Positions 2,788 through 13,014 of a stretch of DNA of 13,014 nt are shown here, piece by piece (within the stretch, counting starts at the first letter, position 1; each line of letters starts with the position of its first letter). The notes below the pieces were generated by a model. The model worked only from the letters and a program-made list of their open reading frames with translations, had not been told where the DNA came from and searched no databases. The stretch is from NCBI GenBank assembly GCA_018902765.1, contig JAHIQC010000171.1, positions 1-13,014 of the forward strand, given 5' to 3'. Origin of the DNA: Actinomycetota bacterium (GTDB lineage Bacteria > Actinomycetota > Coriobacteriia > Anaerosomatales > JAHIQC01). A program made the translations under genes and the position numbers.

Positions 2788-2800
2788 CTCGACGCCCTCC

Positions 2801-2917
2801 GATTTGGTGCCCGATTTGGTGCCCAAATACATGGTGACTGTTGGTACTCGTTGGGACCTATTGGGACTCGCCGCAGCTCCGCCGTACCAACGAGTCCCAA
2901 TAGTCACCAATAGTCAC
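2801..2917. repeat. Cluster of short repeats left of att-like copy 2
   Basis: GATTTGGTGCCC occurs twice in tandem (2801-2812 and 2813-2824) and matches 1169-1180 beside copy 1. Next come several copies of an ATTGGGACTC-like unit. On the plus strand they lie at about 2840-2849, 2850-2858 and 2860-2869. On the minus strand they lie at about 2884-2891, 2892-2902, 2902-2909 and 2909-2915. A 13-bp perfect inverted repeat is formed by 2858-2870 and 2891-2903. Multiple short, oriented sites next to a core site are what integrase arm-type binding regions look like. This reading is an inference. Confidence 0.5.
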
Positions 2918-2928
2918 AAGCACAATCA

Positions 2929-2954
2929 GGATTCGAATTCCCTTGGAGGCACCA
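2929..2954 (+). repeat. tRNA-Glu 3'-end fragment, att-like copy 2
   Basis: This segment shares GGATTCGAATTCCCTTGG with copy 3 and GATTCGAATTCCCTTGG with the tRNA gene. It ends in GAGGCACCA, with one G-to-A change relative to copies 1 and 3. No CCCCC block lies upstream, and the 200-bp repeat does not follow it. It separates the AbiE block from the CWB2 protein gene. Confidence 0.8.
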
Positions 2955-3074
2955 GTATAAGCGCAGGGCAGGGGGGTGAATCCTCTGGCCTGTTTGCGTG
3001 GATGACGCGTTGCCTAGGCTCGTTCGACCTGTCACGATGTCCCCCAAGCATCTACGAGGGGGTCGAAGGTCGGA

Positions 3075-5033
3075 TTGGTTAAGCCAAGGGTGTTCGGCGC
3101 GTGTTTTGCGGTGTCGATCGCGTTACTCGTGGGACTCGCGGTATTTCCGTCAACTGCGAGGGCCGACGTCACCCTCATTCCGGACACGGTGGGCTCACGC
3201 GATGTTGTCTACGACGAAGCCCGCAGTCTCCTCTACATCAGCCGCGGCCAATACATCTACCGGCATGACCCCGCGACAGGGGTGTCTCTTGCGCCCGTGA
3301 TGGTCGGAATCGACTTGATGGGGATGGACCTCGATGCGTCAGGGGACCATCTGCTGGTCGCTGACCGGGTCGGGGCGGGCGTGACCGGTGCGGTCCGCCG
3401 AGTCGATCTGGACGACTGGTCTGTGGAGAGCCTGAGTTATCCTTTGGAACCCGGGGAACTGGGCGGGTTCGCCGTCGCGGCTGGGTATGACGACAGCATC
3501 GTGGTGAGCGGTTTGTACTCGGGATCGGGATGGATACCGTTGCGTAGGCGAGATCCCGAAACAGGGACGTGGTCGACGCTTCAGGTCAGTCCGGCAAAGA
3601 GCTACTCAGGTGCGATGCTGAAGGCAAGCGCCGATCGCCGGACGATTTGCATCGCCGAAGCGAACAATTCCTGGGGGATCTACGGGTACTACAAGCCGGC
3701 GACGGGCCAGCTGAGCATGCAGGGCATGTCCCGGTTCCTCTACGAGATCACGGCGAACGCCGATGGCACGCGCATGGTGGTGCCGAGCTACCAGGGTCTC
3801 GCGATGCTCGATTCCGGCTTCGCGGAGGTCGCCGATATCCCTGAAATGGGGGTCTACCTCAACAGCATCTACTCGCCAGACGGGGACACCCTCTATGCGG
3901 CGACTGTGTATGGTGTGGACGTCATTCACCCCGCGACCGGCGAGCTGCTTGCGGAGATCGGGTGCCCCGGACTCCAGTGGGTGGGAAACCAAGCGATGCA
4001 GATAGGGCGCATGGCCATCACACCCGATGCTTCGAGGCTGTTCATCACGACACTGGACGGCGTATATGTGCGCTCTGTCGATGGGATCGCCGAACCAGGC
4101 GTCCAACGCATTGCCGGGGCCGATCGCTATCTCACTGCCATCGCGAACTCCAAGATGGCATACCGCGGAGGAGCGGATGCGGTTGTGATCGCGACCGGCA
4201 CGAACTGGCCTGACGCACTCGGAGGATCGGCGCTAGCAGGGGCACTCGACGGCCCGCTGCTGCTCACTACAACGTCGGATCTGCCCGATGCGGTCGCCGC
4301 TGAGATTAGGCGACTCGGGGCGACGAAGGCGTATGTCCTCGGAGGACCCGGCGCCGTGGGCCCGGGGGTCGAGGTTGAGCTCAAGTCCATGTTGGGCCAA
4401 GCGAACGTAGTCCGATTGTCAGGGTCCGACCGATATGCTACAGCTGCTCGCGTTGCGGATGAGGTCGTCGACGTCGCGAACACGCTCGGTTTCGGCTATG
4501 ACGGATCCGCGCTGGTCGTCACCGGCGGCAACTACCCTGATGCGCTTGCAGGAAGCCCACTCGCGGACCAGATGGTGTGGCCTGTTTTGCTTGTCCGCCC
4601 GACCACGGGCGAACTCTACCTCCCCAACGGAACGACCGACGCAATCATCCTCGGCGGGAAGGCAGCGGTGGGACAGGTCGTCGAGGATCGACTGAAGGCC
4701 GACCTAGGCGAGGATGCGGTCATCCGCATCGCCGGTCCGAACCGCTACGCCACCGCGGCCCTTGCTGCAGAGCACGGTGTCGCGATCGGAATGTGCTTCG
4801 ACCGCGTCGGTGTGGTCTGCGGCGAGAACTTCCCCGATGCGCTCTCCGCTGGAGTGGCGCGTGGGGCATTCGGCTCGGTCATGTTGCTCACGCGCTCCAC
4901 CGACCTTCCGCCTGAGACGCAGTCGATCCTCTCAAGGAATGCCAAGAGCATCAGAAACGCCTACATTATCGGTGGCACGAAAGCCGTGAGCGACAAGGTC
5001 AAGGCCGCCGTCGAGGCGGCCATCGGGTCGTAG
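3075..5033 (+). CDS. Secreted beta-propeller-like protein with three CWB2 repeats
   Basis: This is a 652-aa exported protein. Residues 1-30 form a Sec signal peptide: Lys3 and Arg5, a hydrophobic core at about 8-25, and an ARA cleavage site before Asp31. Residues about 31-335 contain repeated blade-like units (for example YDEARSLLYISRGQYIYRHD, and later SPDGDTLYAATVYGVDVIHP), suggesting a YVTN/beta-propeller fold. Residues about 342-652 hold three cell-wall-binding type 2 repeats, beginning near 343 (RIAGADRY), 446 (RLSGSDRY) and 549 (RIAGPNRY). Each has the typical NWPDAL/NYPDAL/NFPDAL and LGG/IGG motifs. CWB2 modules anchor proteins non-covalently to the cell wall in Firmicutes and Actinobacteria. 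The start is a TTG with GAAGG 5 nt upstream; the Lys/Arg N-terminus supports it. The gene lies alone between att-like copy 2 and the tRNA. The ligand of the propeller half is unknown; adhesion or surface sensing is possible. Confidence 0.88.
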   Translation: MVKPRVFGACFAVSIALLVGLAVFPSTARADVTLIPDTVGSRDVVYDEARSLLYISRGQYIYRHDPATGVSLAPVMVGIDLMGMDLDASGDHLLVADRVGAGVTGAVRRVDLDDWSVESLSYPLEPGELGGFAVAAGYDDSIVVSGLYSGSGWIPLRRRDPETGTWSTLQVSPAKSYSGAMLKASADRRTICIAEANNSWGIYGYYKPATGQLSMQGMSRFLYEITANADGTRMVVPSYQGLAMLDSGFAEVADIPEMGVYLNSIYSPDGDTLYAATVYGVDVIHPATGELLAEIGCPGLQWVGNQAMQIGRMAITPDASRLFITTLDGVYVRSVDGIAEPGVQRIAGADRYLTAIANSKMAYRGGADAVVIATGTNWPDALGGSALAGALDGPLLLTTTSDLPDAVAAEIRRLGATKAYVLGGPGAVGPGVEVELKSMLGQANVVRLSGSDRYATAARVADEVVDVANTLGFGYDGSALVVTGGNYPDALAGSPLADQMVWPVLLVRPTTGELYLPNGTTDAIILGGKAAVGQVVEDRLKADLGEDAVIRIAGPNRYATAALAAEHGVAIGMCFDRVGVVCGENFPDALSAGVARGAFGSVMLLTRSTDLPPETQSILSRNAKSIRNAYIIGGTKAVSDKVKAAVEAAIGS

Positions 5034-5158
5034 CCCCATTTCGCCCGCACCCTGGTGCTCCAGAATCGCGAAGGCGGTGCCCCCCGGCAGCGTCGGCATT
5101 TGGGCAGGTCTCGGGCGTACGCTAGGGCTCGGGACGCTTTCTGCCGAGGATAACTGTT

Positions 5159-5233
5159 GCCCCCATCGTCTAGTGGCCAAGGACATCGCCCTCTCAGGGC
5201 GGGAACGGAGATTCGAATTCCCTTGGGGCACCA
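5159..5233 (+). tRNA. tRNA-Glu(CTC), probably with a damaged acceptor stem
   Basis: The sequence starts GCCCCCATCGTCTAGTGG and folds as a tRNA. The D-arm is GTC/GAC, the anticodon stem TCGCC/GGCGG encloses the loop CTCTCAG (anticodon CTC, Glu), the T-loop is TTCGAAT and CCA is encoded. Two oddities stand out. The 3' acceptor strand has only four G residues where five are needed to pair with the 5' GCCCCCA, so the stem is one base short. The T-stem also carries an A-C mismatch. The three fragment copies nearby all keep five bases in the GGGGG/GGAGG block before CACCA. The gene may therefore be impaired or a pseudogene created by integration events at its 3' end. Most bacteria carry other tRNA-Glu genes. 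Confidence 0.82.
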
Positions 5234-5241
5234 AAGAATAG

Positions 5242-5280
5242 ACGAACCCGCGGCTCATCGAGTTGCGGGTTTGTTGTCTT
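5242..5280 (+). terminator. Terminator after tRNA-Glu
   Basis: A 10-bp stem is formed by 5242-5251 and 5265-5274, including AACCCGC / GCGGGTT and one G-T wobble, with a 13-nt loop. The T-rich tail is TTGTTGTCTT. It starts 9 nt after the tRNA CCA, as expected for a tRNA transcription stop. Confidence 0.7.
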
Positions 5281-5323
5281 CCGTGGCGGATGCGCCGACG
5301 CAGCATGCAGCGCTAAACACTAA

Positions 5324-5345
5324 CGTGATTGCATGATTAATCACG
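5324..5345. promoter_or_regulatory. Inverted repeat, possible operator
   Basis: CGTGATT (5324-5330) and AATCACG (5339-5345) form a perfect 7-bp inverted repeat. The overlapping TGATTAATCA (5334-5343) is itself a palindrome. It lies about 100 bp upstream of the 53-aa gene in otherwise empty DNA and could bind a regulator of that operon. No strong promoter boxes can be assigned. Confidence 0.35.
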
Positions 5346-5446
5346 AATGCGGCAAGAGCGGTGCCCGAATTTGTCGTTGTGAGTTTACGTGGCGTCTACG
5401 GTGACAATATGGTAGATTGTCGTTGTTCAGTTACCGAGGGGATGCG

Positions 5447-5608
5447 ATGACAACTTCAGCAGTTGGTCGCGCGCTTCGGGGGCGGCCCTCCCGAATCGCG
5501 GTGTGTAGGCGATTCGCCACCGCCATCGATGAGCTCGGCAAGTACGGCGGGCTTCCCACTCCGGTTGAAGCCAAGCAGCTGGTGGGCGGAGGGTCGTCGC
5601 CAGAATGA
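5447..5608 (+). CDS. 53-aa basic peptide, possible truncated Fic N-terminus
   Basis: This small gene has an ATG start preceded by a good ribosome binding site (GAGGGG, 5436-5442). Its TGA overlaps the next gene's ATG by 4 nt (ATGA), so the two form a coupled operon. The peptide is rich in Arg and Ala, then carries GGLPTPVEAKQL (34-45) and a Gly/Ser tail. From memory, GRP..., a regular helix, and GGLPTPVEA resemble the start of actinobacterial Fic/DOC proteins just before their Fic fold. Nothing of the Fic catalytic motif follows in any frame here. It may thus be a truncated relic. Alternatively it is a genuine small partner, such as an antitoxin, of the membrane protein. I cannot choose between these. 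Confidence 0.5.
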   Translation: MTTSAVGRALRGRPSRIAVCRRFATAIDELGKYGGLPTPVEAKQLVGGGSSPE

Positions 5609-6198
5609 ATGACAAGAGTGAGGGCGCAAGGCGCTTGGGACACGCAGTAGCCGCACTTGCGTGCGCTGCTCTAGGGGCCGTCTACTGGGCTTGGGCGAGT
5701 CACGTGGGCAGTTCGATGCTGTACGGGGTTCAACACGCGCCGCGCACATTGGATGGCTTCTTGGTGAAGATCGGTTGTGCCTTGGGTGCGATCTTCCCAT
5801 ACTGGTCTGCATCTGCTTGGGGCTACGACTGGGAGATGTGGCCATCACTTCAGTTCTGGGCTGTAGCCCTTGTGCTCCCGATAGTTGTGGCACTGGTCTA
5901 TGGTCTGGTAGTGGGGGCGAAAGCGTCCCGTGAGTTCCTGCCCGCGGCATGGGCGCTGTGCGGATGGATTGTGGTGTCGCTAACGCTGTTCCCTTGGTTC
6001 TCTGGATTTGCTGCGCCGTTGGCGCTTCGTTTGGCGGGAGATTCGTTCATGCCGTCCGTTAGGATCATGGTCACAGGTGCGGTTTCCAGGAATCTAGTCG
6101 CGATGCCGTATCTGGTGTTCTGGGTGCTGCTGGCCACGCCCAAGCTATCATCATTGATCGTGGATGTCAGTAGGCGAGTGAATAAGCGATTGAGCTGA
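5605..6198 (+). CDS. Multi-spanning membrane protein of unknown function
   Basis: This is a 197-aa hydrophobic protein that I do not recognise. Likely membrane segments are at about 12-31, 51-68, 83-104, 114-134 and 160-178. The N-terminus (NDKSEGARR) and the basic C-terminus (SRRVNKRLS) are probably both exposed, and there are many Trp residues (28, 30, 67, 72, 76, 79, 85). A GGAGGG at 5588-5593 precedes the ATG by 11 nt, and the ATG overlaps the stop of the 53-aa gene. The pair occupies the block between the tRNA gene and att-like copy 3, which makes it mobile cargo by position. A small soluble protein coupled to a membrane protein in a defence island could be an abortive-infection pair, but there is no motif evidence for this. 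Confidence 0.65.
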   Translation: MNDKSEGARRLGHAVAALACAALGAVYWAWASHVGSSMLYGVQHAPRTLDGFLVKIGCALGAIFPYWSASAWGYDWEMWPSLQFWAVALVLPIVVALVYGLVVGAKASREFLPAAWALCGWIVVSLTLFPWFSGFAAPLALRLAGDSFMPSVRIMVTGAVSRNLVAMPYLVFWVLLATPKLSSLIVDVSRRVNKRLS

Positions 6199-6447
6199 GC
6201 CGGATTGCGGGTTGAGACAGCAACCGTGCCTGAGGTCTCGGGCACAGACATGGGTGGCTCCTGTCTTCGCGGCAGCGCGCTTCATTCGCTCCGAGTTGCG
6301 ACGAGCTGCCTCCCGACGCAACCGCTGGCACTCTCGGCGTACGTTTGCCGTCGCCGAGATGTCGCCCAGCGCTCTCGATGCGGGACAGAACGCGGCGATC
6401 TGCGATGGCGCAGTGTAGACCACGACACCGCCGGCGACCTGCAACAA
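6151..6447 (-). CDS. Doubtful coding remnant, minus strand
   Basis: An open frame of up to 98 codons begins at a TTG with no clear ribosome binding site, a few codons after a stop. Third positions are GC-rich over about 6240-6447, and the product has a helical, Arg-rich middle (NVRRECQRLRREAARRNSERM). Its last part overlaps the end of the membrane protein gene convergently and looks non-coding. I recognise no family. It may be a decayed small gene or a chance frame. Confidence 0.22.
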   Translation of the reverse strand: MLQVAGGVVVYTAPSQIAAFCPASRALGDISATANVRRECQRLRREAARRNSERMKRAAAKTGATHVCARDLRHGCCLNPQSGSAQSLIHSPTDIHDQ

Positions 6448-6483
6448 TGCAGCTCGGACAGCACGAACTCACACTCGTTGAAA
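6199..6483. other. Stretch without a confident gene
   Basis: Apart from the doubtful minus-strand frame there is no supported gene, and no clear terminator follows the membrane protein gene. The right end carries TGAAACCCCCG (6479-6489), the same string that precedes att-like copy 1. Confidence 0.35.
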
Positions 6484-6520
6484 CCCCCGTGTCAGGATTC
6501 GAATTCCCTTGGGGGCACCA
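6484..6520 (+). repeat. tRNA-Glu 3'-end fragment, att-like copy 3
   Basis: This is a copy of the tRNA-Glu T-arm and acceptor 3' end with five G residues before CACCA. It is identical to copy 1 from GGATTC through CACCATAAA. CCCCC (6484-6488) can pair with GGGGG (6511-6515) around the T-loop, as in copy 1. It marks the left boundary of the defence-gene block. Confidence 0.8.
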
Positions 6521-6712
6521 TAAATCCGCAGTTCAGAGGCCATTATTGGCCTGATATTGGGCCCAAGATCGGGGTTCCGACTTCGTCGGTTTGGAGCCGG
6601 TTTGAGGACAAAATCGCAGCTCAGAGGCCATTTCTGCCTCATTTTGGCGCCCAAGCATCCCTGTTGCTGAGAATCGCTCTCGACGTCGGCGTGTAGCCCG
6701 ATTTGTCGCCCA
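6521..6712 (+). repeat. Degenerate ~200-bp repeat beside att-like copy 3
   Basis: This is the partner of the repeat at 988-1186. An internal duplication of a CAGYTCAGAGGCCATT unit lies at 6526-6543 and 6615-6631, 89 bp apart, almost the same spacing as in the first copy. The terminal part reads GCCCGATTTGTCGCCC where the first copy has GCCCGATTTGGTGCCC. The minus strand is open in the same frame in both copies (NEAEMASELRFCPQ here). Confidence 0.6.
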
Positions 6713-7009
6713 ATTCACCGTGAATGCTTTCCTTCCATGCCGCTGTTCGGGCTTGGGAGACTGACCCCACCTGTCGCTTGATTGTGGACGGAAGTTCGCC
6801 ACCGTATCGAGTGCGGCAAGGAAGATGAGGCAGTCCTCTCGGGTCTCGCCGAGGAGCTCGGTCGCTCTGCCGATCGTTACGGTGGAGGCCTCCACCTCGT
6901 CTTGGTCACTGAGGACCAACCAACGTGATCCGGACCATGACGGTGCTGCCATTTCGGCATCGTTTGAGTACTGGTTCGATGCAAAATCGAGTGAACACTC
7001 GGCGCGGGA
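6713..7009 (-). pseudogene. Possible gene remnant, minus strand
   Basis: Between a stop at 7010-7012 and the 200-bp repeat, the minus strand is open with GC-rich codon use. It encodes CSLDFASNQYSNDAE, then MAAPSWSGSRW and EVEASTVTIGRATELLG. An ATG at 6952 is available but has no good ribosome binding site. The frame then continues into the repeat, which is unlikely to be coding. It looks like the middle of a decayed gene downstream of the large ATPase. I cannot assign a family. Confidence 0.25.
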
Positions 7010-7102
7010 TCAGACAGCTTGGCCTGACTCGGGGCGCGTTGCGGTTGAGATGGCGTGGCATCGGGGTGCTTGCGCGGGTATTACACGGAGCGCGCGGGAT
7101 GG

Positions 7103-9727
7103 CTAGTGCGTTGGTGGCGACTCCAGCTTCTTGCGCCTCGCAATAACCTCCTGGGCTCTGGCATCGGCGGCTTTCTTGAAGGCCCTCAGCTGCTCGATGT
7201 CCGCAGCAATCTCGGTGTCCTTCGGAATCACGGTGGTGCCGCCCCCGGCGGGAGTCCGGTGGGCATCGACGATGTTGGACGCCTTGGTCATCGCCCAGAA
7301 GACCGTGCTGTGGTCCTCATCCTCGACGAACACGCCCTTGAGCATCTGCGCATGGACGGCCTTGTCGAAGGGGCCGACCACGGAGCGAAGGAGCGACTCC
7401 TCGACCACACGCTCCCACGCGGCGCGAATCAGGTCATAGCAGTCCACGACCTTGCCCCGCCGGGCGATGTCATTCGGGTCCATCGCCGCGACCTCGTCGG
7501 CCAGCTTCTTGATATGTTTGATGAGGTCGTTCAACTTCATCGCCTCGGGGTAGAGACCGTCGACCGGCACCCCGGTTCCGTCGGATGTCCGTGCGACCGC
7601 ATGCTGTCGCACCGGAACCTGCGCCAGCGCAGCCGCTTGGTCGATGGCGTAGAGAAACGCAAGATCGTGGCTGAGGATGATGACCTGTCGGTGCTTGGCC
7701 TCCTCGACGAGGCGGGTGGCGAGCTTGTCCCGATGCTTGTGGTCCAGCGAGGAGACCGGGTCATCGAGGACGATTGCGCTGGAGTGCCCCTGCTGCCCGA
7801 GCTCCGCGAGGAATGCCGCCATCGCCAGACAGCGATGCTCCCCCTCGCTCAGAATCTCCTCGATCTTGGTGTTCCTCGGCGCGTTCTTCAGCCTCAGGTA
7901 GTGGAGAACTCCTCCACCGTCGCCCTTCTTGACGAACTCCACTTTGAGCGACTCTGCGTCCAGCGCATCGAGCTCCGTGTTCAGCGCCAGGCAGAGGGCA
8001 TCGGTCAGCACCGCTTGTGTCGTCTTCGTGGCCTGGCGGGAGACGTGGGCGGTGTCGATTGTGTTCGAGAGCACTTGGAGCCTTCGCTTCGTCGCGGCGG
8101 CCCCGGCGCTCTCGATGATTGTCGGTAGAACCTTCGCGAGCGCGATTCGGTTGTTCAGCAGACTCAGATTGCCCTTCAGCTTCACGAGGGCATCGGCGTT
8201 GGAGTTCTTGTCGAGTTCGTCGGCCTCCTTCGTCAGCTTCGTGGCCAGCGCGGTCACGGTGCTGATGCCGGCGGCGGGACCGATGAGCTTCGACCACTGG
8301 TCGTGGGAGGAGACCGCCTCGGCGGAGGTCTGCCATTTGGTGAAATCCGTGCGCATGGTCTTGAGTGCCGTCGCCGTGGCATCGGCGCGCTCAAGGACCT
8401 GCTCGACGAACGCATCATCAATCCCGCCGATGCCCTTGGCTGCCTCGATGGCACCGGTGCGAAGGTCCCCGTAGACCTTCGCCGCATCGCGGGCGCGTTT
8501 CTCAGCCTGGTTCCCGATGAAGTCGGCGAACCGGGTGAGACGGTCCTTCGCGGTCTCGTCGAGCGTCTGGTGGCAGAGCACGCAGCGGCTGCCGTCGCCG
8601 ACCACCGGGAACTCCTCGCCGGGGAACGCGACCTCGTTGGAGAACGCCTTGGCATCCAGGAACATGGCCTTCCACTGCTCCGTGCCGACGCCGGACACGA
8701 GCTCGCCCTCGAAGGCGGCCTTGGACGCCAACTTCGCCGCCTCGTCCTCGTCGGAGGCCTTCTTCATCGCATCCCCGAGGAGCTTCACCGAGTCCTGAAT
8801 CTTGATCTGGGCGGCGGTAATCTTCTGAGCGGTGGAGGCGAGCCGGGTTGCGAGAGTCCTGCGGGAGACGGCGAGCTTCTTCGGGTCATCGTTCTCAAGC
8901 TGGGTGATCTGGGTCTGTAGGCGCGCCGCCTCCTTCTTCTCCTCGTCGCTCACCTTGCCGAGCATGTTGAGCGCGCTGAGTTTCTGCCCGGAGTTGTCCA
9001 GGGCAACCGCGTCGACCGCCGTCTTCACCGTCGGATGGTCGAACTCGGTGATACATCGTGGAACCTGGATGACAGCCGCCTCCTCTGCGAGGCGTGCCTT
9101 GATGCGCTTGTAGGAGGCTCCGAGCTCGTCGAACACCTCCAGGCCATAGGGCCGGTAGGCGAGTTCGCCCTCCTTCTCGACGTAGAGGCGCGCGCACTTC
9201 GAGTCGAAGACGGCGACGCTCGCGAGTGATTCTGAGGAATCGACACCGTCGGTCCATGGTTCGGTGATGTCGCCGCTGCCATCGGTGTAGACGAACTTCG
9301 CCGTGGCCGCCGAGGGTGGGGTGCTTCCGGAGAACACGTCGGGCAGGATGCGGGGCTGGGCGTGCCGGGACCGGCATGCGCTCTTGAGCACCTTCGAATA
9401 ACCGCTCTTCCCGGACCCATTATCGCCGTAGATCACTGTGAGACCCTGGGGGCCACCGAAGGTCAGGGTCTGGTCGGGGGCCAGCGCGTTGACGCCGGCC
9501 TTGTGCTCCAGGGAGACGAGCGAGATGGGCTTCGCACCCGTTGGCTGCGGGTCCGGAATCGTCGGCTCCTTGAACTCGCCCTTGGCTGGTGGCTCCTTCA
9601 GCAGCTTGATGATGTCGTCCTCGTCGGCCTCGGTGAGTTCCCCCTTCACGACGAGACGGCGGACCGCCTCCTGCTCCCAGGGCTTCAGCGATTTCGACCA
9701 GGTGATGATGGATTCAAAGATGTTCAC
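7103..9727 (-). CDS. Zinc-hook ABC ATPase, RloC/PrrC-like putative anticodon nuclease
   Basis: This is an 874-aa defence-type ATPase. A helical N-terminus (1-65) precedes Walker A GDNGSGKS (101-108). A long Lys/Ala/Glu-rich, probably coiled-coil region (about 205-600) is interrupted by a CVLC zinc-hook motif (C382, C385). Then come the ABC signature SEGEHR (627-632), Walker B IVLDDPVSSLD (652-662) and the switch histidine LSHD (685-688). The C-terminal part contains R768-x3-E772, with H806 34 residues later and H823 further on. The RloC and PrrC anticodon nucleases carry an R-x3-E...H active site after an ABC ATPase, and RloC also has a zinc hook, so the match is good in layout. I therefore infer a tRNA-cleaving, phage-triggered suicide enzyme, but a plain Rad50/SbcC-like ATPase is possible. 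The GTG start is chosen because GGAGGGG lies 5 nt upstream; an upstream ATG at 9850 lacks this. Confidence 0.82.
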   Translation of the reverse strand: MNIFESIITWSKSLKPWEQEAVRRLVVKGELTEADEDDIIKLLKEPPAKGEFKEPTIPDPQPTGAKPISLVSLEHKAGVNALAPDQTLTFGGPQGLTVIYGDNGSGKSGYSKVLKSACRSRHAQPRILPDVFSGSTPPSAATAKFVYTDGSGDITEPWTDGVDSSESLASVAVFDSKCARLYVEKEGELAYRPYGLEVFDELGASYKRIKARLAEEAAVIQVPRCITEFDHPTVKTAVDAVALDNSGQKLSALNMLGKVSDEEKKEAARLQTQITQLENDDPKKLAVSRRTLATRLASTAQKITAAQIKIQDSVKLLGDAMKKASDEDEAAKLASKAAFEGELVSGVGTEQWKAMFLDAKAFSNEVAFPGEEFPVVGDGSRCVLCHQTLDETAKDRLTRFADFIGNQAEKRARDAAKVYGDLRTGAIEAAKGIGGIDDAFVEQVLERADATATALKTMRTDFTKWQTSAEAVSSHDQWSKLIGPAAGISTVTALATKLTKEADELDKNSNADALVKLKGNLSLLNNRIALAKVLPTIIESAGAAATKRRLQVLSNTIDTAHVSRQATKTTQAVLTDALCLALNTELDALDAESLKVEFVKKGDGGGVLHYLRLKNAPRNTKIEEILSEGEHRCLAMAAFLAELGQQGHSSAIVLDDPVSSLDHKHRDKLATRLVEEAKHRQVIILSHDLAFLYAIDQAAALAQVPVRQHAVARTSDGTGVPVDGLYPEAMKLNDLIKHIKKLADEVAAMDPNDIARRGKVVDCYDLIRAAWERVVEESLLRSVVGPFDKAVHAQMLKGVFVEDEDHSTVFWAMTKASNIVDAHRTPAGGGTTVIPKDTEIAADIEQLRAFKKAADARAQEVIARRKKLESPPTH

Positions 9728-10162
9728 GAGCTCCCCTCCGTTGAATCCGATTCTACGCCAGAGGAGCCCGGTTCTAGTCATCAGGCGAAATGGGGCGTCG
9801 ATGGCGGGTAGCACCCGAAGGCAACCGGCGTCGCCAACCGCATACCACAACCGGTCGGGCGGATACTCGCACTCGACGGTCCAGGAAGCTTGGGGTGGTC
9901 AACTTTTCGATGGACAAACACACCATCTGGCGGCAGGACAGCTCTTCCGCACGCCTCGGGGGTGGCGGGTGCGCGCCCAGTGCGACTGTGCAGACTGCGC
10001 GTGAAGATGGGTCCCCAACGGGTGATCTGCATGGACTGGAGCCGCCGTCGACGCTCACGGTGGCACAGTGAGCTGGAGGGGTGTCATGCAGAGTAGCTAA
10101 GATGTGGTGTGAAGGTTCTACCGATTGCTCAACTGTAGGTTATCTAGAGAAGGGCCACTCGC
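9728..10162. promoter_or_regulatory. Divergent intergenic region between the two ATPase genes
   Basis: These 435 bp separate the minus-strand ATPase from the plus-strand HNH gene and must hold both promoters. I see no strong consensus boxes. The sites that set the starts are GGAGGGG (minus strand, 9733-9739) and AGAGAAGGG (plus strand, 10146-10154). Several overlapping short frames occur (for example a plus-strand frame from an ATG at 9914 to 10071), but none has a good ribosome binding site or a recognisable product. Confidence 0.4.
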
Positions 10163-11338
10163 GTGCGCGCCAACTTCTCGAAGCCGGTGGCCGCAGTCGC
10201 CGCCGCAAGGGCCGGGTATCGATGTAGTCATCCCGACTGTGGGAAGACGACGATTGGCCCTGGCGCCGCGCGAAATGAGTCGGCCTCCATTGGGGTCGCT
10301 GCGCATATCTACTCAGCAGCACCTCAAGGTCCGCGCGGGCAGGGAGGTTTGTCCGGGGCCCAACTGCGCGACTTGAGCAACGCGATATGGCTGTGCCAGA
10401 GCTGCTCTCGAATCGTTGATGCGAATCGTGGAGACAAGTATCCGCCGGCGGTCCTGCTCGGTTATCGCGATCTCAGGGAGTTTAAGACTTCGTGCGAGAT
10501 GGGTGACGTATCGGATCTGCAGGGTTGGTTCGATGAGATCGTTGTGGGAGGAGCGATGCTTTCCGGGGAGTCATCGATACGTCTCGGGAAGGCAACCGTC
10601 TTTCGCGGCCGGAACGACAGTGGCAAGACCATGGTCTGTGACTGGATTGCCGGAACACAGTCCCGAGAGCGTCTCGCGCGCTGGCGGGATTCTGAACCCC
10701 CGCCGCATCTCGTTCTTCGCATGCTGCACCGAGCTGGCGTGAGTGAGCTGGGCGTCGCAGTGAGAGAGGGCACGATTGTCTACACATTGGATGGCGCATC
10801 GGCTCCCCTCAATCCGCTGGACTACCGGATCGTCTATCTGAGATCCACCGCGACATCAATGGAGGAGACGGCTCTCGATCGCATTGCCCATGCAGTCGGG
10901 ATTGACTACGACACTGCCGCGGGTCTGTCATCCGTCATCGCACAGAATCCAGGCTCCTTCGTTACAGGCGCTCGGGTCGAGGGAGATGACCTGCATGTTG
11001 GTCTCTCGGGGAACGGCGACATGTTGCCGTTCTCAAGGCTGTCGGGAGGTGAGAGTTGGCTCGTGACTATCGAATTCGCGTTAGCGCTGGCAGTGGCGGA
11101 GGCGCTGTATCGGCCGACATTGCTCGTGATCGACAACGCCGTTGGCTCACTGGACCGAGTGGCGACTGAGAGACTCGTTGCACGACTATCGACACCGGAA
11201 TTCAGATTTCAGACCATAGTCGTCGCCACAGACCAAGAATCGCCGTTCTTCGGATGGCAGTTGTACGATTTCGGGGGTACCCGTGGCACGATTGTTCCCG
11301 CCTATGAGAATGCGCAAATATCGGGAAATGGCTCCTAG
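10163..11338 (+). CDS. HNH nuclease fused to compact ABC ATPase
   Basis: This is a 391-aa two-domain protein. Residues 1-115 form an HNH module: C21/C26, GVAAHI with H48, GPR (56-58), then SNAIWLCQSCSRIVD (72-86) with N73, C78 and C81. Residues 130-391 form an ABC-type ATPase: Walker A GRNDSGKT (149-156), signature LSGGE (293-297), Walker B LLVIDN (320-325) and D-loop GSLD (328-331). Only about 135 residues separate Walker A from the signature, so there is no room for long coiled coils. The position after the Walker B Asp is Asn rather than Glu, and the expected switch His is Asp or Gln (VVATDQES), so hydrolysis may be slow or altered. Septu defence uses a separate ATPase (PtuA) and HNH nuclease (PtuB); here both functions are in one chain. 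The GTG start has AGAGAAGGG 8 nt upstream. A SIR2 gene follows 67 nt downstream, probably in the same operon. Confidence 0.85.
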   Translation: MRANFSKPVAAVAAARAGYRCSHPDCGKTTIGPGAARNESASIGVAAHIYSAAPQGPRGQGGLSGAQLRDLSNAIWLCQSCSRIVDANRGDKYPPAVLLGYRDLREFKTSCEMGDVSDLQGWFDEIVVGGAMLSGESSIRLGKATVFRGRNDSGKTMVCDWIAGTQSRERLARWRDSEPPPHLVLRMLHRAGVSELGVAVREGTIVYTLDGASAPLNPLDYRIVYLRSTATSMEETALDRIAHAVGIDYDTAAGLSSVIAQNPGSFVTGARVEGDDLHVGLSGNGDMLPFSRLSGGESWLVTIEFALALAVAEALYRPTLLVIDNAVGSLDRVATERLVARLSTPEFRFQTIVVATDQESPFFGWQLYDFGGTRGTIVPAYENAQISGNGS

Positions 11339-11405
11339 ATAGTGACTGGGTGCGGCTCCGTCATGCACCTCGGAGCTCCAGACAGCATTGTGGGAGGGGT
11401 TGTCA

Positions 11406-13014
11406 ATGGTGCCAGTCGGCGCGTCAACGGAGGACATCGCCAGGACGTTTGTCAGCTCCACGAGCCGGGCGATGCTCTTCGGCGCAGGATTGTCGGCATC
11501 TGAGCTGCCGCAGTTCGGACAGCTGTTCGAGTCATCCTTGAGTGCCTTGGCTGCCAGCGACGCGCAGATGGTCGGATTCGCGGACCTACTTACTGACACG
11601 GCCGCTGCCGGTTGCTCAAAGCGTCCGCGCCCAGAGGAGTTCTTCGCAGCGGTTGAGGCGGAGGCGCCAGGCGCGGGTCTGTCCCTGGCTCAATCCGCAT
11701 ACTCGACGGGCAACCCCGGCCCCGCTCACTACATGGCAGTCGAGGTATCGCGCCACTCGGACGCCCCCATCTTGACCACCAACTTCGATACGCTGCTTGA
11801 GGCCGCAGCAGGCGATGCTGCGGTGGAAGTCAGGCATCTCCACGGCACCACGGAGGACCGCAGTTCCATCGCGGTGGCGGTCAACAACGTCGCGGGCCAC
11901 AACGCACGCAGGGTCAGACGGTTCGCGGGCTCAGTTCTTCGTGGCAGCGTCGTCCTTGTCGCGGGCTACCAGGGTCTAGATAGTGACGTGTTTCCTCTGC
12001 TCAATGAGGCTGATCACCTGCTCTGGCTCGTCTTTGCTGATCCAACCGCCGACCCGGTCGTCCTCGCGAGCCAACGATTTCCGCACCTCGCGCACTTGAG
12101 GAATCGGGTGACGGTGTTCTGCGACGACGTGCAGGGCGTGCTTGCAGCGATTGCTGCGGCCGACGGCTACACGCCTCCGTGTCCGCCGCCCGCTGTGTCG
12201 TCAGTGACACCTGACTGGGAGTCCGCCGTTCGCCAATGGGCCGCAGGATTGGCACCGTTGAAGCGGCGCCTCGTGATTGCTCGGCTCCTGAGCCACGCCG
12301 GTCACTTCGAGGAATCTGGCGCGCTCTACGAAGCGATTACGACCGAGGCACGCGGGTCTCGGAAGCCTCAAGAGGAAGCGGCTGCGATTGCTGGAACGGT
12401 CAGAGTGGTCGGCTCCAGTCTCGGTGACTACGACGCCGCAAGGAAGGGTCTCGATCGACTCATGACGCTCTCCGCACTGCCCGGTATCCGAGGGCGTACG
12501 TCGTTGATATCGGCTCTGCTCAACACAATGGAGGCAGCAGCCGTCGTTGGGGTGCGATTCCCTCGAGCGAGATACGTGGCCGCGCTCTTGCCGCCTTGGA
12601 CGTCCGGGGACTATGCGCGGGGAGGGAAGCTGATTCGACAGGCTGCTGCAAGACTGATGCGACGACGCAGACGCCTCATGAGTCGTGCTCTGTTTCGAGC
12701 GGCTCTACTGCTTGCCGCATGGCGTGGTGATTTCGAAGAGGGTGTTGTTGTCCGGTGGTATCAGGCCCTTTCCGATGTCGAGATAGGAATGTACGACAGG
12801 GCGTACGGCCGGCTAAGCGCCATCCCTCCCACGGACCTGGACTTCGTCGGTGTCACGTTTCGATTCTGGTTCGACTGGCTGCTGCGCGAATTCGACCGTC
12901 TTGGAATCAGGGGCGAGCCCCCCATTCCTAAGTACGGTGCCAATCTCCCGCCCAATCCGGGCGCATCATTGCTGGACGACGTTTCTCGTTTGTCCACCGC
13001 GCGACTGAACGGCC
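11406..13014 (+). CDS. SIR2-domain defence protein, 3' truncated by window end
   Basis: The frame is open for 536 codons to the right edge, so the C-terminus is missing. Residues about 20-255 form a SIR2-like NAD-binding domain. The nucleotide loop is MLFGAGLSASELPQF (23-37), followed by ILTTNFDTLLE (122-132) with N126 and D128, HLHG with the candidate catalytic H146, and GYQGLDSD (187-194). In defence systems such domains usually destroy NAD+ to stop phage growth. From about 270 onward the protein is alpha-helical with repeat-like units (LLSHAGHFEESGALYEAI, AWRGDFEEGVVVRW) resembling TPR repeats, a likely sensor or scaffold. The ATG is preceded by GGGAGGGG with a 6-nt spacer. The preceding gene encodes the HNH-ATPase fusion, suggesting that the two work together, with the SIR2 protein as effector. 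Confidence 0.85.
   Translation, partial: MVPVGASTEDIARTFVSSTSRAMLFGAGLSASELPQFGQLFESSLSALAASDAQMVGFADLLTDTAAAGCSKRPRPEEFFAAVEAEAPGAGLSLAQSAYSTGNPGPAHYMAVEVSRHSDAPILTTNFDTLLEAAAGDAAVEVRHLHGTTEDRSSIAVAVNNVAGHNARRVRRFAGSVLRGSVVLVAGYQGLDSDVFPLLNEADHLLWLVFADPTADPVVLASQRFPHLAHLRNRVTVFCDDVQGVLAAIAAADGYTPPCPPPAVSSVTPDWESAVRQWAAGLAPLKRRLVIARLLSHAGHFEESGALYEAITTEARGSRKPQEEAAAIAGTVRVVGSSLGDYDAARKGLDRLMTLSALPGIRGRTSLISALLNTMEAAAVVGVRFPRARYVAALLPPWTSGDYARGGKLIRQAAARLMRRRRRLMSRALFRAALLLAAWRGDFEEGVVVRWYQALSDVEIGMYDRAYGRLSAIPPTDLDFVGVTFRFWFDWLLREFDRLGIRGEPPIPKYGANLPPNPGASLLDDVSRLSTARLNG

Follow-up and report, generated by a model that had tools for sequence, protein, structure and literature searches.

As a sequence-only reading of this locus proposed, a gene for an HNH nuclease fused to an ABC ATPase and the SIR2-like gene behind it might constitute a new defence operon; the question is whether the two genes form one system or whether the fused protein acts by itself. 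The window (the whole stretch of DNA analysed, 13,014 nucleotides) is an entire contig of an incomplete Actinomycetota genome, and consequently the SIR2-like gene is cut short, and a third gene, if present, would lie out of view. The features on which the argument turns are as follows:

10163..11338, plus strand: HNH-ABC ATPase fusion gene, 391 aa, GTG start (open reading frame, profiles and 30 other full-length loci)
10163..10507, plus strand: HNH nuclease domain (aa 1-115) with H48 and N73; C21, C26, C78 and C81 are its probable zinc ligands
10520..11323, plus strand: compact SMC/Rad50-type ABC head, aa 120-387 (predicted structure; no coiled coil in the model)
10607..10630, plus strand: Walker A motif GRNDSGKT, aa 149-156, with K155 (present in 48/48 aligned sequences)
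11132..11137, plus strand: Walker B D324, then N325 where the catalytic Glu is expected (Glu at 325 in 7/48)
11339..11405, plus strand: intergenic gap of 67 bp, in which a simple scan showed neither a promoter-like nor a terminator-like site
11406..13013, plus strand: SIR2-like gene, at least 536 aa, ATG at 11406, cut by the contig end (weak profiles and ordered motifs)
11481..11495, plus strand: SIR2 motif GAGLS, aa 26-30 (motif scan)
11775..11789, plus strand: SIR2 motif TTNFD, aa 124-128 (motif scan)
11835..11846, plus strand: SIR2 motif HLHG, aa 144-147, with H146 (motif scan)

The proposal that one polypeptide joins an HNH domain to a compact ABC ATPase is borne out by the single open reading frame, the HNH profiles and the modelled head. 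The HNH part matches the PADLOC models PDC-M68A (5.9e-17) and CBASS HNH effector (7.3e-16), the former over model positions 1-108 of 253 and so not over the whole model, as membership of PDC-M68 (a PADLOC candidate) would call for; it also matches solved Cap5-type chains in sequence comparison, and it is by analogy with Cap5 that the four cysteines are assigned their probable zinc-binding roles. The ATPase part matches SMC_N at 2.7e-6, under Pfam's cut-off; in the structure model (pLDDT 91.6) the head is of the SMC/Rad50/RecF type, with SMC, Rad50 and RecF as its nearest folds, and a viral structure library yielded assorted ABC, AAA and SMC-type proteins, none of them informative. No single Pfam, NCBIfam or PADLOC model, as searched, spans both domains.

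That a SIR2-like protein follows was also read correctly: the three motifs occur in the expected order, H146 lies in HLHG as claimed, and the profile matches are weak (SIR2_2 4.8e-4, below Pfam's cut-off; PRK00481 0.0037; PADLOC SIR2 0.0055). The open reading frame is longer than any on the plus strand of 500 random 2-kb sequences of equal GC (longest 298 aa), and the single-sequence structure model of the protein has a pLDDT of 38, too low to be used, which leaves the TPR-like C-terminus of the sequence-only reading as a putative feature. Protein searches, with about 8,000 top candidates scored in each, gave no convincing homologue (the sole extra match, P0026, has an E-value of 8.9), and none beyond the protein itself was found in plasmid tblastn, 296 genomes of its class, or the PDB. 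With the SIR2 proteins of defence (DSR, Thoeris ThsA, SIR2-HerA, short pAgo-SIR2) it shares the ordered SIR2 motifs and a long C-terminal part, and it may resemble DSR; it differs in its weak profile matches and in that the searches gave no convincing homologue, and is known here as a partial gene.

The surroundings are rich in defence genes. An AbiEi/AbiEii pair at 1239-2764 (PADLOC) and a 915-aa PDC-S06 protein at 7103-9850 on the minus strand (PADLOC 4.6e-177) mark the window as a defence island; amid this stretch lies a 652-aa protein (3075-5033, plus strand) with cell-wall-binding CWB2 repeats (Pfam 2.9e-50).

Distribution and active-site residues of the fused protein

The fused protein belongs to a widely dispersed family. 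A protein search recovered 24 proteins, the window's own among them, and the closest relatives, the metagenome proteins P0002-P0005, are 45-59% identical to it. An alignment-based genome scan gave 40 loci, with both domains in 24 (L031-L053 and L062, counting L045, whose N-terminus is cut) and the HNH part or little more in the other 16; both domains are also present in two (L002, L003) of the 18 loci from a viral scan; and of 116 plasmid records found by tblastn, two reach 80% coverage or more and one other also matches both domains, so that three plasmids carry a full-length gene. One further full-length locus (L080) came from a phylum sample of 396 genomes, which also contains two matches restricted to the HNH part, of which one lies at the edge of a contig; a single-protein scan of genome contigs returned no matches. 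Besides the window, 30 full-length loci were thus available, all with both domains in one open reading frame, and the named hosts of the family span ten phyla: Actinomycetota, Myxococcota, Verrucomicrobiota, Acidobacteriota, Pseudomonadota, Binatota, Nitrospinota, Bacteroidota, Neomarinimicrobiota, and Bacillota.

The genes beside the fusion vary from locus to locus, and in some settings it stands alone. It occurs in 10 of 5,426 E. coli genomes, annotated nine times as 'HNH endonuclease' and once as 'hypothetical protein'; in strain EC12, the one carrier of the ten whose surroundings were inspected, it is a lone gene in a P2-like prophage, flanked by genes for tail-fibre assembly and the tail sheath, a position that may be the Z/fun cargo site of P2. 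The HNH-ATPase of the P2-like prophage has the accession WP_050487813.1. The viral locus L002 has the same gene setting. Defence hotspots in P2-like phages are described in passages of PMC9122126.

HNH domains of this type also occur in other company. In L081, a 2,137-aa protein (5261-11674, plus strand) bears a Cap5-type HNH near its N-terminus and no ABC head, and about 1.1 kb away a SIR2-RES protein is encoded on the opposite strand (2791-4110, minus strand); in the genome of L038, a further HNH of the Cap5-like type seen in the fusion lies within a 1,317-aa open frame (G068:C244:31046-31378).

To compare the active sites, 48 sequences were aligned: the window, 22 proteins of the protein search, L002, L003, and 23 genome loci (the alignment leaves out P0001, which is the window's own protein, the half-length P0023, L045, the plasmids and L080). 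H48 and K155, the residues singled out from the sequence, are invariant in all 48, as is the HNH residue N73. By contrast with the P-loop lysine, the Walker B Glu is present in 7/48 and the H-loop His in 5/48, the two together in 3/48; the Glu is scattered over the tree, requiring at least six changes. Since most members lack the Glu and the His while keeping the P-loop Lys, the residue pattern suggests a head that is probably an ATP-occupied pairing switch and not a cycling motor; as seven sequences keep the Glu, and three of them the His too, some Glu-bearing members, of which L050 is one, may hydrolyse ATP.

The same observations bear on whether the protein is a DNA-repair or restriction-type housekeeping nuclease with no tie to phage defence. 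Its head is closest to the folds of SMC, Rad50 and RecF, and HNH domains are found in restriction enzymes too, both of which would fit such a role; it is nevertheless unlikely, in view of the patchy distribution (full-length matches in 0/60 related genomes and in 1/395 others of the phylum sample, with four candidates scored per genome), carriage on a prophage and on plasmids, and the degenerate hydrolysis residues.

Possible partners of the fused protein

If the two genes of the window formed a conserved system, SIR2 genes should recur beside the fusion. None of the 30 other full-length loci was found to have a SIR2 gene next to the fusion, although for one of them (L042) the contig stops about 0.2 kb after the fusion and its downstream side is unreadable. 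With co-location defined as the same contig and within 10 kb, the SIR2_2 profile gave one co-located match in the 30 non-window genomes and records, in the Binatia locus L039, 4.4 kb downstream and with other open reading frames between, and no match whatsoever in the two virus records (L002, L003); because the SIR2 gene of the window itself escapes this search, it could also overlook SIR2 genes that are divergent. When the window's SIR2 protein was compared by tblastn with the loci collected by then, one chance-level match resulted (E 0.88). A six-frame scan for SIR2 motifs in the window and 26 loci, and also in L071-L074, L080 and L081, was positive in the window alone, though it missed the SIR2 genes of L039 and L081. 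Finally, Pfam and PADLOC tallies of 100 neighbour open reading frames from 26 loci (each 120 aa or longer and no more than 2.5 kb away) contain no SIR2 family among the best 25 of 78 families and the best 25 of 96, which could leave a one-member family hidden; the frames were chosen by length, and wrong ones are possible in GC-rich DNA.

With four approaches, each with limits of its own, giving no adjacent case in these loci, SIR2 as a conserved partner is rejected. The sequence-only reading had itself held that rare adjacency of the homologues would refute its operon, and rare adjacency is what the loci display; what stands of the candidate is its defence setting, with AbiEi/AbiEii and PDC-S06 close by, and what falls is the pairing as a system. 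A 2020 survey of ABC ATPases by Krishnan et al. is a likely place for earlier mention of HNH-ABC fusions. No description of the HNH-ATPase/SIR2 pairing was found in titles and the openings of abstracts, or in passages of the DefensePredictor paper (PMC13092281), and we make no claim that it is absent from print.

A narrower version of the operon, limited to this lineage, would have the HNH-ATPase sense or cut phage DNA, with NAD+ depletion by the SIR2 protein serving as a second arm. The two genes lie on one strand, 67 bp apart and with no terminator-like site by simple scan, and they are alike in GC3 (0.65 for the fusion and 0.69 for SIR2), lower than most genes of the window (AbiE 0.81-0.83, PDC-S06 0.85, CWB2 0.75; an open reading frame at 5605-6198 also has 0.65), which would fit joint acquisition; moreover, the neighbourhood survey does not extend to the flanks of the closest relatives, P0002-P0005. 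Set against 30 loci that yielded no SIR2 gene beside the fusion, and searches that gave no homologue of the SIR2 protein (P0026, at E 8.9, being the one other match), these points leave the lineage-specific operon quite unlikely. The SIR2-like gene seems instead to be a separate defence-type neighbour in the same island and not a fixed partner, and the pairing adds little of value unless it is met again.

A second neighbour deserves the same scrutiny, namely the RloC-like AAA protein PDC-S06 as the true functional partner in place of SIR2. It adjoins the fusion in the window and, upstream and on the same strand, in two related Opitutae loci (L032 4659-9266, L033 5368-9242); in total, the PDC-S06 of the window has a full-length homologue in 4 of the 27 genomes and records searched, and in three of those four that homologue adjoins the HNH-ATPase. 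These two Opitutae are, however, near-sisters, the genes are divergent in the window, 23 of the 27 showed no full-length homologue, and PDC-S06 is common without the fusion, occurring at 80% coverage or more on 160 plasmids, as against three with a full-length HNH-ATPase; such a partnership is accordingly highly improbable, and as an obligate partner PDC-S06 is rejected for most loci. Known defence genes are few among the neighbours in relatives: PDC-S06 leads the PADLOC tally of 100 neighbour open reading frames with a count of two, so the defence-island setting is not general among relatives. A single-protein scan of viral contigs with PDC-S06 gave no matches. The protein itself has a zinc-hook-like CVLC motif at aa 423-426, and R809, E813 and H833 are conserved in an alignment of three sequences, all of which may be features of RloC/PrrC-type anticodon nucleases; its true start probably lies downstream of the annotated one.

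Known systems and a proposed mode of action

Combinations of an ABC ATPase with a nuclease are already known, and the HNH-SMC-head family adds a variant to them. In Septu, including retron-Septu, the PtuA ABC ATPase and the PtuB HNH are products of two genes, whereas in the window and the 30 other loci an ABC head and an HNH domain form one polypeptide; the HNH is, in addition, nearest by sequence to Cap5-type chains, and the Walker B Glu is mostly missing. OLD proteins resemble the fusion in uniting an ABC ATPase and a nuclease in a single polypeptide, and passages of PMC12887533 give an OLD precedent for ATP binding without required hydrolysis; they differ in carrying TOPRIM at the C-terminus, where the fusion has its HNH at the N-terminus. 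No Pfam TOPRIM family matches the fused protein up to E 1, and the head reaches aa 387 of 391. The closest named HNH type is that of Cap5, the CBASS HNH-SAVED effector, and the HNH domain is of this type; in Cap5, according to PMC8568899, these domains contain a zinc finger and associate side by side. In the fusion, however, SAVED is replaced by the ABC head (aa 120-387), and PADLOC gave no CD-NTase match for any of the five window proteins scanned. The Cap5-type HNH thus appears as a module linked to differing partners. Lamassu LmuB, too, is an SMC-like ATPase whose Walker B site is altered, by a Glu-to-Gln change expected to slow hydrolysis (PMC10586767), but LmuB has coiled coils and works with LmuA, whereas the protein of the window has a fused nuclease and a compact head.

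Given a two-domain layout that is constant in 30 other loci and ten named phyla while the neighbours vary, and a gene that stands alone in a P2-like prophage and rides three plasmids, we favour with reasonable though far from full confidence a nuclease that is self-contained and encoded by a single gene, and that would most likely be an effector against phages or plasmids on the OLD/Septu principle, with the SIR2 gene as a separate neighbour. In its ATP-bound state the SMC-type head would hold the nuclease in check or position it, with ATP-bound heads pairing and thereby holding the HNH domains; infection, whether through an altered nucleotide pool, DNA ends or some other phage trigger, would change the pairing of the heads, and the paired HNH domains would then cut DNA or another nucleic acid. 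Published cases offer parallels: in the OLD of Retron-Eco8, cleavage is independent of ATP hydrolysis, yet mutants of the ATP site abolish defence (passages of PMC12887533), and in one Septu, which cleaves tRNA-Tyr, Walker A, Walker B and HNH residues are required (parts of PMC13096335).

A bolder scheme would make the HNH-SMC-head proteins hydrolysis-impaired ATP sensors that free the nuclease when the nucleotide pool is upset, with SIR2 as a true partner in this lineage whose NAD+ depletion amplifies the energy collapse, in a two-effector suicide relay; we regard it as very unlikely. Should the single-gene effector be confirmed, the family would be the equivalent of Septu and OLD in a single gene, spread over phyla, and its scattered loss of the Walker B Glu would suit it well as a model for ABC heads as ATP-binding switches in defence, a question shared with Lamassu LmuB and Retron-Eco8 OLD.

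A repeat of the tRNA-Glu 3' end

The window also carries a tRNA gene whose 3' end recurs outside it:

5158-5232, plus strand: tRNA-Glu(CTC) gene
962-986, 2929-2953 and 6495-6519, plus strand: copies of the tRNA-Glu 3' end outside the tRNA gene (0 expected in shuffles)

Two of these copies flank the AbiE pair. In its 25-base form, allowing up to two mismatches, the repeat occurs at 12 places in the incomplete genome (0 for a reversed-pattern control), one of which is a tRNA-Glu(TTC) gene, and a longer, 245-bp version has 14 matches, itself included. Strong hairpins lie beside the four copies that were folded (z -3.0 to -6.7). It is possible that the repeat is att- or cassette-like. When proteins near the repeat were scanned with PADLOC, five of eight had no match, and other copies adjoin ordinary-looking genes. 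Elsewhere in the same genome, a second AbiEi/AbiEii pair (PADLOC; L088 207-2101) has a copy at 2228-2252, and an Upx-like gene (PADLOC; L085 1303-4980) has one at 803-827.
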